Shown here in pieces: positions 49,072 to 60,415 of a stretch of 64,000 nucleotides of DNA. Location: assembly GCF_000426625.1 (NCBI RefSeq), contig NZ_KE384547.1:1100986-1164985 (forward strand), written 5' to 3'. The notes under the pieces are model-generated. The model was not told the origin of the DNA. It searched no databases and saw only the letters and a list, made by a program, of their open reading frames with translations. A program made the translations under genes and the position numbers. Numbering within the stretch: the first letter of the stretch is position 1; each line of letters opens with the position of its first letter. Source of the stretch: Psychrilyobacter atlanticus DSM 19335. Its GTDB lineage: Bacteria; Fusobacteriota; Fusobacteriia; Fusobacteriales; Fusobacteriaceae.

Positions 49072-50061
49072 TTATACCACTTTATAGAGTTCATCGCTTT
49101 CTGGTTCAGATATGTCTGATCTTTGACCTTTAGAGTCATATATATATTTTTCCTCGATATTTTCTGTGAAATAGCCTATTTCAAAAGTAGGGATATCATC
49201 TGATATCAACCTATTCAATAATGTATCTTTATTTTGAGGAGATACGACTATAAGCATTGATCCGCTGGAAATTAATTTTAATGGATCGATCTCATAATGA
49301 TCACAAATTTTATCGGTAACTTCAGAAACATTTAATTGGTCACGGTAGATGGTAACTCCTAATTTAGAAAGTTCTGCAACCTCCCAGACTGCTCCTAATA
49401 TCCCACCTTCAGTGACATCATGCATCCCCTTAGAGAGTTCTGAAGATAACAAACCTTCTTTGACCACACTGGTTAAACCCATCATAGATTTTCCATAGTC
49501 GATTTCACTTGGAGATAATATAGTTTCTAACTCTTTTTCTTTTTCATAGGTTATGATAGCAGTCCCTTCTATGCCTGTTCCTTTAGTGAGTAAGACTATA
49601 TCTCCCTCTAAAATTTCTTTTTTGTCCTCATAGTGATCTTTGGTTCCGAATCCTAATCCTGTTACAGATATTATGACTTTATTTACAGCGTCGGTAATCT
49701 CTGTATGTCCTCCTAAGATATCAATATTTAACACAGTACATTCAGATTCCATATCTACCATGATATTTTGAAGGTCTTCTACACTGGTCGATGGAGGAGC
49801 CAATATGGTAACCATGATACCCATAGGCTCAACCCCTGTAGTAGCTAGATCATTACAGGTTATATTTACAGCTAATTTGCCTATCTCAGAAACTGCACCA
49901 GTAATGGGATCGCTGCTTATATAACATACTTTTTCTCCCAGGTCTATAGCGGCACAGTCATCTCCTATTCCCGGTGAATTTAAAAATTCCTTTCTCTTCT
50001 TCTTTATATTATTAAAAATTACTTCTTTTAGTTGTGAAGCCGTCAATTTTCCTATTTTCAT
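49072..50061 (-). CDS. AIR synthase-like protein (HypE/ThiL superfamily)
   Basis: The 329-residue protein shows the ATP-binding fold shared by PurM, HypE, ThiL and SelD: PGIGDDCAAIDLG near 30-42, ITCNDLATTGVEPMGIMVTI near 68-87, 'LNIDILGGHTEITDAVNK' near 112-129, GDIVLLTKGTGIEGTAI and MHDVTEGGILGAVWEVAELS near 213-232. It lacks the Cys/Sec N-terminal loop of SelD and the C-terminal cysteine of HypE, so it belongs to the uncharacterised AIR-synthase-related branch common in anaerobes. Role unknown. Confidence 0.75.
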   Translation of the reverse strand: MKIGKLTASQLKEVIFNNIKKKRKEFLNSPGIGDDCAAIDLGEKVCYISSDPITGAVSEIGKLAVNITCNDLATTGVEPMGIMVTILAPPSTSVEDLQNIMVDMESECTVLNIDILGGHTEITDAVNKVIISVTGLGFGTKDHYEDKKEILEGDIVLLTKGTGIEGTAIITYEKEKELETILSPSEIDYGKSMMGLTSVVKEGLLSSELSKGMHDVTEGGILGAVWEVAELSKLGVTIYRDQLNVSEVTDKICDHYEIDPLKLISSGSMLIVVSPQNKDTLLNRLISDDIPTFEIGYFTENIEEKYIYDSKGQRSDISEPESDELYKVV

Positions 50062-57214: not shown

Positions 57215-57370
57215 TTATATTACTCCACTTATTCCCCTAGCATAACGAGCATTTTTTTTCTTACACAATGGACAAATCTTCTTATATGGAACTCCAAGAG
57301 AATCTACTGCTGTTTCAAATTTTTTTTTGCATTTTAAACATTTTATTATTTTAGTATTTTTATTATTCAT
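57215..57370 (-). CDS. small zinc-ribbon protein, 51 residues
   Basis: GGGGGACAT precedes an ATG at 57370. The protein has two C-x2-C pairs, KCLKCKKKF and KICPLCKKKNARY, separated by about 18 residues, which makes a typical zinc ribbon. It is strongly basic, so it may bind nucleic acid or a ribosome. It is too short for many gene finders. It is divergent from the selenoprotein gene, sharing a 172-base intergenic region. Confidence 0.7.
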   Translation of the reverse strand: MNNKNTKIIKCLKCKKKFETAVDSLGVPYKKICPLCKKKNARYARGISGVI

Positions 57371-57542
57371 ATGTCCCCCTATTCACTTATAATTCTTAGA
57401 ATTTTTAATAGTTCCTTAAATTTAATAGTTCTTTATACTATAGGTAGTGTTATTTTCCTTTTATTTTTACAAATATAAAGGAAAATACTTAACTTACTCG
57501 TATAAAATTATGATAAAAATATAATTATAAAGGAGGTAACGT

Positions 57543-57782
57543 ATGAAACCTATATTATCAATTGAGTTTTGTACATCATGAGGGTATGCAGAGAAAGCAG
57601 TGGATGCTATTGGAGCCTTGGTAGGGTTCTATAAAAATTATTTCTTAGAGTTTAAACTTATCCCTTCGTCTGGAGGTGTATTTGAAGTTAGATTTGAAGA
57701 CAAACTTTTGTTTTCTAAAAAAAAAGCGGGAAGATTTCCAGAGTTAGATGAGTTAATTGAACTTGTAAAAAACGAAATATAG
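57543..57782 (+). CDS. SelW/Rdx-family selenoprotein, UGA read as selenocysteine
   Basis: AAAGGAGGTAACGT precedes an ATG at 57543. The frame reads IEFCTS-U-GYAEKAVDAIGA, with an in-frame TGA at 57579-57581, and stays open to a stop at 57782 (79 residues). C-x-x-U followed by GY is the redox motif of the SelW/SelT/Rdx thioredoxin-like family, and later parts (PSSGGVFEVRF, KAGRFPELDELIELV) match its C-terminal half, including the G-x-F segment. Eighteen bases after the TGA, AGCA-GTGGA-TGCT can form a small hairpin with a G in the first loop positions, compatible with a bacterial SECIS. Ordinary gene calling would report only a truncated 60-residue frame from a GTG at 57600. Confidence 0.85.
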
Positions 57783-57834
57783 AAATAATTAAAAAAAAAC
57801 TTAATCATAATAAAATTTTAAGAAAATTAAAGTT

Positions 57835-57867
57835 AAAAAAACAGAGGGAAGTATCTCTGTTTTTTTA
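57835..57867 (+). terminator. selenoprotein gene terminator
   Basis: AAAAAACAGAG and CTCTGTTTTTTT pair over 11 bp with an 8-base loop and T-run. Confidence 0.82.
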
Positions 57868-57999
57868 TTATCTATATTTTATTGTTAGATTTATTTTTTA
57901 TACTCCTATCCTTGATTTTTATTATAAATATATATATAATATATTTAATTTGATTTTAAGATTATTAAAATCAAAGTTTAAAGAGATTAAAAAATAATT

Positions 58000-58088
58000 C
58001 TGAAAAAGGCAAAGCAGAAGAAATTCTGTGACGCAAAACTAAAGGGTCTAAGTCTATATTATTTAGAGATGACAGCCAGTTGCCAAAA
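58000..58088 (+). ncRNA. cyclic di-GMP-I riboswitch (GEMM-I) aptamer
   Basis: The conserved elements are in order: GGCAAAGC (58008-58015), TGTGACGCAAAACTAAAGGG (about 58027-58046), TCTAAG, and ATGACAGCCAGTTGCC (58069-58084), which closes the P1 stem GGCAA/TTGCC. The GACGCAAA junction and ACTAAAGGGTCTAAG segment are typical of the class. It lies ahead of a terminator and an HD-GYP gene, so c-di-GMP level should set expression of that enzyme. Confidence 0.9.
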
Positions 58089-58136: not shown

Positions 58137-58231
58137 ATTTTGCCTAATTTAAATATTATTCTGTATGAGCTTTAAGATTAACTTGATAAAGAAGAATTGT
58201 TAGACACTACTGAAAGCATTTGGAGGTTTAT

Positions 58232-60415
58232 ATGTATAAAATTTTATGGCCGATTTTTTTCTTTTTGTATATTTCATCCTTTGGGATGGATACACTAAAA
58301 ATTGAATTAACTAAAGAGGAAAAGGAATGGGTTAAGCTGAATCAACGTAAAAATATAACTATTTATATGGATGAAAATAGGGGAATATTAAATTATCATT
58401 CAAATGGACGAAGGAGGGGAGTTTTCCCTAAAATCATTAAATTTCTGGAAAGAAACACAGGACTAAAATTTCAGGTGATTAATGAAGATACTGACAAATT
58501 TGAAAGATCTGTGGATTCGGGTTTTCCTGATATCGTAATGGGGGTAGAGGACTACAAAAGAAACAATAAAAAATATATTTATATAAAAAAATCACTGAAC
58601 TTAGATGGAGTGATGATAACCAGAAATGATTATCCATCCATTGATTTTAAGACAGATATCTCCAATAAAATAATTGTTTGTATGGAAGGTGATCTGATAA
58701 AAGATAAAATTTTGAAAAAGTATGGAAATTCAGTAAAACTTATCCTTAAACCAACGAGAAAGGGAGCTATGGATTCTCTTTTATTAGGAGAGGCAGATAT
58801 CTATATTGAAGATTATGAGGATGGATTAAAATATCTGATTGAAAATCCGGAAACAAAAGCTAGAATAAACTATCTTTCAAATGACCTTGAAACTGACTAT
58901 TATATAGGGGGAAAATCAGAATATAAACAATTATTAAATCTGGTTGAAAGATTATTAAATCGTGCTGATATAACAATGAAGTTTTTTTATGATGAATCTG
59001 TGGAATACACAAAAAATAAGGTGAAGATTTCAAATGAAATAAAAAAATATATGGAAGAAAAAAAGGTTATAAAAGTTTTTATCCCAAAAGTAGATGATAT
59101 TCCACAGCTTTATCACAGAGATAAATTTGGGAATAAAGCTGGATTTTTGGTGAATTATTTCAATGAAATAGAAAAAATAATGGGATTGAAAATAGTTTTA
59201 GAAGAAAACGATTCACCTTCTTCTTTTGATATTAATCCCTTTATATTATCGGTGAATGGAAAAGAATTAAACAATAAAGAGCACCTTTCCACAGAACCCT
59301 ATGTAGAAGCTCAATTCTCAATCTTCAACAGGGCAGACGAGGGATATATTCCATATTCTGATGATCTAGAAATCTATAAGATAGCCGTGGTAGGAGGATC
59401 TCTTATTGAAAAATATCTTTTGAGTAAAGGGTTAAAGGATAACTTAGTAACCTTCAAAACAATTGAAGAAACTATGACTGCTGTGAGTGAAGGTGATGCA
59501 GATATTCTTATAGGGAGAATACAGTATATTGACAAACTCTTAAAAAAGTATCGTATAGAAAACATAAAAATAGCAGGAATTATGCCTGATAAGATAGACT
59601 TGAGGTTTGGTGTCCCTAAAAAAGACGAAATACTTTATTTTCTGATAAATGGTTTCAACAATGATTTTTCCTATGGGATAAAAATGAATAAAGATGAATT
59701 TTTTTCAAAAAATACGGAAATAGCAAAGGACTATAAATTTTCTATTATTATATTACTGATTTCAATTCTTGGGTTTTTAGGAGTATACATTCATTTAAAA
59801 AGATTTAAAAAAGTATACAATAAATTAAAAAATATAACGATAGGTCTAGTGGAGACTCTGGAGAGTGCAAATACTTATAATGATGAAGATACCGGTGCAC
59901 ACATAAAGCGGCTAAATCAATATTCAGAATTATTGGCTGAAGAACTTAAATTATCAAATTCTTTTGTAAATGAAATAGGACTATACGCTTCCCTTCATGA
60001 TATAGGTAAAATAGGGATTTCAGATGCCATCCTAAAAAAACCAGGGAAACTGACAGAGGAAGAGTTTGAGATCATGAGAAGCCACATAGAAATTGGTTAC
60101 AACCTTATAAAGGATTTAGATGTAAGTCCAGTGGCATCAAATATAGTCAGGTATCATCATGAAAAATGGAATGGGAAAGGTTATGGAAAGGGACTCAAAG
60201 GAGAAGAGATTCCTGTAGAAGCAAGAATAGTGGCATTGGCAGATGTGTATGATGCTTTACGGCAGGAACGAGTTTATAAAAAAGCCTTTACCCATGAAAA
60301 ATCTATGGAAATAATAATTTCTGAGAGTGGTAAACATTTTGACCCTAGAATAGTTGAAATCTTTATAAAAAAACATGAGAATTTTCGGGATATATTTGAA
60401 GAGAGTAAGGTGTAA
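58232..60415 (+). CDS. periplasmic-sensor HD-GYP c-di-GMP phosphodiesterase
   Basis: A signal peptide or anchor (FFLYISSFGMDTLKIEL) is followed by two SBP_bac_3-like amino-acid-binding domains (about 20-260 and 270-505), a membrane span near 515-535 (FSIIILLISILGFLGVYIHL), a short coil, and an HD-GYP domain: DTGAHIKRLNQYSELLA, LHDIGKIGISDAILKKPGKL, 'RYHHEKWNGKGYGKGLKGEEI' and RIVALADVYDALRQERVYKK. The HD pair and GYP-region are intact, so it should hydrolyse c-di-GMP in response to a periplasmic ligand. A c-di-GMP riboswitch precedes it. GGAGGTTTAT precedes the ATG; an upstream TTG overlaps the ribosome-binding site. Confidence 0.92.
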   Translation: MYKILWPIFFFLYISSFGMDTLKIELTKEEKEWVKLNQRKNITIYMDENRGILNYHSNGRRRGVFPKIIKFLERNTGLKFQVINEDTDKFERSVDSGFPDIVMGVEDYKRNNKKYIYIKKSLNLDGVMITRNDYPSIDFKTDISNKIIVCMEGDLIKDKILKKYGNSVKLILKPTRKGAMDSLLLGEADIYIEDYEDGLKYLIENPETKARINYLSNDLETDYYIGGKSEYKQLLNLVERLLNRADITMKFFYDESVEYTKNKVKISNEIKKYMEEKKVIKVFIPKVDDIPQLYHRDKFGNKAGFLVNYFNEIEKIMGLKIVLEENDSPSSFDINPFILSVNGKELNNKEHLSTEPYVEAQFSIFNRADEGYIPYSDDLEIYKIAVVGGSLIEKYLLSKGLKDNLVTFKTIEETMTAVSEGDADILIGRIQYIDKLLKKYRIENIKIAGIMPDKIDLRFGVPKKDEILYFLINGFNNDFSYGIKMNKDEFFSKNTEIAKDYKFSIIILLISILGFLGVYIHLKRFKKVYNKLKNITIGLVETLESANTYNDEDTGAHIKRLNQYSELLAEELKLSNSFVNEIGLYASLHDIGKIGISDAILKKPGKLTEEEFEIMRSHIEIGYNLIKDLDVSPVASNIVRYHHEKWNGKGYGKGLKGEEIPVEARIVALADVYDALRQERVYKKAFTHEKSMEIIISESGKHFDPRIVEIFIKKHENFRDIFEESKV

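Follow-up and report, generated by a model that had tools for sequence, protein, structure and literature searches.

A SelW/Rdx-family gene with an in-frame TGA in Psychrilyobacter atlanticus, read as a putative selenoprotein gene

The selW locus and its predicted product

The window analyzed here is a stretch of 64,000 nucleotides from the marine fusobacterium Psychrilyobacter atlanticus DSM 19335 (contig NZ_KE384547.1, positions 1,100,986 to 1,164,985). It contains a small gene, selW, whose frame carries a single internal TGA and is closed by a TAG at 57780–57782 (Table 1). The gene starts with the arrangement AAGGAGG-N6-ATG, in agreement with the strong ribosome-binding site and start codon described in the first-pass annotation. 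The frame reads MKPILSIEFCTS up to the TGA and GYAEKAVDAIGALVGFYKNYFLEFKLIPSSGGVFEVRFEDKLLFSKKKAGRFPELDELIELVKNEI from there to the stop; the second part opens with GYAEK, and the C-terminus is NEI. The TGA occupies the second redox position of the C-T-S-U motif.

When the TGA is filled as Cys or as the 21st amino acid, selenocysteine (Sec), the product matches the Pfam family Rdx with E = 7.8e-19 (68.1 bits against a cut-off of 22.6), and, with the TGA taken as a residue, the NCBIfam model CXXU_selWTH with E = 3e-16 (59.4 bits, cut-off 34.2). Against the narrower Campylobacter equivalog NF041051 it scores 67.8 bits, short of the 88 required. The 66 residues 3' of the TGA match Rdx on their own with E = 2.2e-12, and the continuation is, therefore, no chance open frame. 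The earlier description of a CxxU frame that runs to a normal stop and belongs to the SelW/Rdx family on both sides of the TGA is upheld. A match to Pfam Lgl_C (E = 1e-4) was set aside, as the post-TGA part lies below the cut-off and the competing Rdx match is far stronger. Residue Cys10 and the Sec or Cys at position 13 are invariant in the aligned homologues, with the CxxU motif placed after the first strand.

Table 1. Features at and around selW, with positions in the window
Feature	Position	Strand	Basis or remark
selW, SelW/Rdx family selenoprotein (predicted), 79 aa, CxxU	57543..57782	+	Profile matches, homologues
Shine-Dalgarno AAGGAGG	57530..57536	+	Sequence; also kept in G007
In-frame TGA, residue 13 of C10-T-S-U13	57579..57581	+	Homologues with TGA or Cys codon
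Candidate bSECIS hairpin 1, stem AGCA/UGCU, loop GUGGA	57596..57608	+	bSECIS rules, recurrence
Hairpin 2, 8 bp, loop GGU starting 38 nt after UGA	57612..57630	+	Re-codings, pair changes
Intrinsic-terminator-like hairpin 3' of selW	57834..57867	+	Works in either direction
c-di-GMP-I riboswitch aptamer	57998..58087	+	81 bits, E = 2e-14
Gene for HD (HD-GYP-like) protein	~58220..60415		Just 3' of riboswitch
Zinc-ribbon-like ORF, ~51 aa	about 57220..57370	-	5' of selW; weak Zn_ribbon_8 match, below cut-off
AIR-synthase-like protein	49072..50061	-	HypE, ThiL and SelD matches, all well below cut-offs

The AlphaFold model of the product (pLDDT 92.9) has a strand at residues 4–10, and the CxxU motif lies at the end of the first strand. 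The predicted fold is thioredoxin-like, with a β-α-β-β-β-α organization as in solved SelW proteins. The model superimposes on the solved structure of the SelW-related protein 2fa8 with a TM-score of 0.95 and more weakly on mouse SelW (2npb; TM 0.69). The sequences of solved structures include none close to the selW product (best E = 6e-8). The SelW-related proteins 2fa8, 2oka, 2obk and 2p0g from Proteobacteria have the fold in common with it (TM 0.9–0.95), but are just 23–31% identical over the alignments. These four proteins presumably carry Cys in place of Sec.

In its own genome and in the related genome G007, selW is a solitary gene, flanked by an alanine:sodium symporter gene on one side and by a c-di-GMP-I riboswitch with its HD-GYP-type gene on the other. 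The terminator-like hairpin suggests a single-gene transcript. The gene behind the riboswitch also encodes a weakly matching periplasmic solute-binding domain, and its HD-GYP-like product probably degrades the riboswitch ligand. A different arrangement is found in three sister genomes (G001, G002 and G005), where selW lies directly downstream of dfx, the gene of desulfoferrodoxin (a superoxide reductase), and upstream of pyrK/pyrD, with a dfx-selW gap of 24 bp in G002. The dfx-pyrK locus holds no selW remnant in the own genome, G007, G006 or the less complete G003 and G004. A small conserved ORF of 47 aa (MKFLTINNNSINFMDKFL...; L061 1756–2030) lies between dfx and pyrK in several genomes, with a promoter-like sequence before it, a T-rich hairpin after it and no Pfam match.

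Homologues and candidate SECIS hairpins

A search of 98 Fusobacteriota genomes revealed a homologue in just six, five of one genus together with Propionigenium maris (the named records are Psychrilyobacter MAGs and P. maris DSM 9537). The same codon is TGA in G007 (97% identical), P. maris (68%) and G001 (45%), and a Cys codon in G005 (TGT; 57%) and G002 (TGC; 53%). The close homologues show TGA or a Cys codon at position 13 and nothing else, in keeping with the earlier reading of this residue, and Cys forms exist within the genus. Between the own gene and that of G007 there are ten synonymous and two amino-acid codon changes, nine and two of which, respectively, lie after the TGA. Amino-acid changes would be expected at 70–80%, and the excess of synonymous changes (P about 1e-4) indicates purifying selection on the coding sequence 3' of the TGA. 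Conserved coding on both sides of the UGA and a Sec/Cys pair among the homologues, which together mark a selenoprotein, are both found here.

Outside the phylum, the SelW family occurs in 138 of 301 sampled Chloroflexota genomes. All 30 best matches fetched as loci contain one in-frame TGA, which falls at the CxxU in every one of them that is legible by motif. The homologue of Thermomicrobium roseum has its TGA at the same position, and the frame 5' of it is as conserved as the frame 3' of it. Phage records contained no selW homologue.

Bacterial SECIS (bSECIS) elements are described as having a stem of 4–16 bp and a loop of 3–9 nt with a G in its first two positions, at 16–37 nt from the UGA and with a minimum free energy of at most -7.5 kcal/mol (PMC13188914). 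Hairpin 1, with its stem beginning 14 nt and its loop 18 nt past the UGA, fits all of these rules (-8.1 kcal/mol). Synonymous re-codings of the same protein often fit as well: 87% contain some bSECIS-type hairpin and 14–22% one as good as hairpin 1. The region does not stand out in its folding energy (z = 0.16 to 0.33), and in this gene alone hairpin 1 is no better than chance. The G-loop hairpin noted earlier 18 bases after the TGA is thus present and conforms to the rules, but by itself is weak evidence. A hairpin at 17–18 nt is also found in G007 and, with 6 bp each, in P. maris and G001, whereas neither Cys copy (G002, G005) has one fitting the rules. This distribution lends hairpin 1 weight: a hairpin of its type lies at the same distance in each of the four fusobacterial Sec copies and in neither Cys copy.

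Hairpin 2 is more stable (-8.2 kcal/mol; P = 0.013 against synonymous re-codings), and in P. maris it is matched by none of 1500 re-codings. Among the own gene, G007 and P. maris, one pair shows a two-sided change (C-G to U-A) and two pairs a one-sided change, with pairing kept; conservation over three sequences is suggestive only. Neither G001 nor the Cys genes have hairpin 2. It may be an alternative or an additional part of the SECIS, and the choice between the two hairpins is not settled. As the SelB target we favor hairpin 1, for its spacing and because it occurs more widely.

Decoding of the TGA

The Sec machinery was sought by family searches in the window's own assembly, which comprises 3.5 Mb and is 98% complete. 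A tRNA-Sec with anticodon UCA (65.7 bits, cut-off 47) was found together with selA (590 bits), selB (369 bits) and selD (386 bits), the three protein genes forming one cluster on contig C3. The selD gene has one in-frame TGA of its own, in the motif CSGGGUTS. Known selenoprotein families are represented by four more genes (L095, L096, L097 and L098), of which three are GrdB-like and one is PrdB-like; each has a single in-frame TGA, with GTCxR and a long open frame behind it. Counting selW and selD, the genome has at least six candidate selenoprotein genes. It encodes a complete selenocysteine system, as the first-pass annotation had predicted: selA, selB, selC and selD, the genes it named for a check, were all found. 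The MsrA beside selD was rejected as a selenoprotein, since its motif GGCFWC is the Cys form. As in the AIR-synthase-like protein of the window, weak SelD-type matches are seen in proteins of 331–332 aa in related genomes.

The TGA could instead mark a pseudogene, in which the TGC or TGT of a Cys-type SelW recently mutated to TGA and the protein is no longer made. The Cys forms in the same genus and the weak hairpin of the single gene are compatible with this. A recent lesion agrees poorly with a TGA that G007, P. maris and G001 have all retained across 45–97% protein identity and that is also present in distant homologues of Chloroflexota and T. roseum, with purifying selection 3' of the TGA, or with the presence of the Sec machinery, and we consider a pseudogene very unlikely. 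The UGA could also be decoded as another amino acid (for example Trp, or by near-cognate readthrough), and some bacteria do reassign UGA. Here, the UGA sits exactly where homologues carry Cys, tRNA-Sec, SelA, SelB and SelD are present, and the TGA codons of selD and the GrdB- and PrdB-like genes are at known Sec positions, not scattered at Trp positions, which leaves this explanation with next to no probability.

An internal start could also make the downstream frame as a separate, truncated Rdx protein, without read-through. The T. roseum DSM 5159 plasmid (L063 2501–2737) carries a SelW homologue with an in-frame TGA, and the PLSDB record calls the gene only downstream of it; a truncated product would be left without the first strand and the two redox residues, which belong to the best-conserved regions, and an internal start is, likewise, extremely improbable. 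Because conservation in the T. roseum record is as strong before the TGA as after it, the PLSDB call looks like an annotation artefact. Its entry, an 'Rdx family protein' annotated from after the TGA only, is an instance of the truncation by standard annotation that had been anticipated. The selW gene is "hidden", as first proposed, for naive gene callers only; its family is among the catalogued selenoprotein families of bacteria (PMC1088965, PMC13188914).

The explanation that we hold with little doubt is that selW codes for a bacterial selenoprotein of the SelW-like (Rdx) family, with the UGA read as Sec and a thioredoxin-fold product that likely has a thiol/selenol redox role. At the sequence level, it is carried by the gene, its frame and family, the modelled fold, the Sec machinery, the conservation of the TGA and the Sec/Cys exchange. 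We infer that Sec is actually inserted at the UGA, and likewise which hairpin SelB binds and the redox role. The ribosome would meet the UGA at codon 13, where the elongation factor SelB, guided by the stem-loop just 3' in the message, would deliver Sec-tRNA(UCA), and Sec would be inserted in place of a stop. The resulting protein would be small, with a thioredoxin fold and a C-x-x-U redox center where the first strand ends.

Sec/Cys exchange, function and relation to known systems

At the shared dfx-selW-pyrK locus, G001 has TGA, whereas G002 and G005 have TGC and TGT and lack a bSECIS-type hairpin. The two Cys orthologues are 53–57% identical to the selW product, in the same gene order as in the Sec-bearing G001; both genomes keep selA, and G002 also selD with its TGA. 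A 29-row tree places the six proteins from fusobacteria in one group (95/89). One Sec-to-Cys change explains the labels, given that all outgroup rows are Sec forms, in a sample biased toward the best matches (members without TGA exist lower in the list). The placement of G001, a long branch, is unsure on the tree; the three genes are taken as orthologous because they share the locus, on grounds independent of the tree. A switch of SelW from Sec to Cys within one Sec-decoding genus, Psychrilyobacter, is rather probable. Sec/Cys conversion was not recorded for SelW in Table 1 of a 2006 survey (PMC1794560), and a 2026 review describes Sec-to-Cys changes as rare events, for the most part limited to FdhA and SelD (PMC13188914). 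Within the genus, nature provides Sec and Cys forms of one protein for close comparison, in genomes still able to decode Sec.

The most likely role of SelW is in thiol/selenol redox chemistry, for instance the repair of peroxides or oxidized proteins. The dfx neighborhood in the three sister genomes, together with the CxxU motif and the fold, points to oxygen-stress defence in an anaerobe. In the own genome, where selW is not beside dfx, such a role would be carried over from the relatives. Elsewhere, selW-like genes are clustered with peroxiredoxin (PMC13188914). For a family with a bacterial role described as unclear, the dfx neighborhood is a testable hint.

Bacterial SelW-type selenoproteins have been known since about 2005, and the present gene is a new member of a known family; the apparent Sec-to-Cys switch and the dfx linkage are mildly new. 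The literature searched did not report SelW in Fusobacteriota and contained no relevant paper on SelW with Psychrilyobacter or superoxide reductase. With this locus, Fusobacteriota join the lineages that have Sec-type SelW; it also exemplifies a real gene that is dropped when TGA is naively read as a stop. With the bacterial SelW-like selenoproteins (PF10262; PMC1088965, PMC1794560, PMC13188914), it shares the CxxU motif, the small thioredoxin-like fold, a single TGA, a (here candidate) downstream stem-loop and the Sec machinery in the genome. It differs from them by its lineage, Fusobacteriota (Psychrilyobacter/Propionigenium), and the dfx-selW order of the three sister genomes is a further difference.
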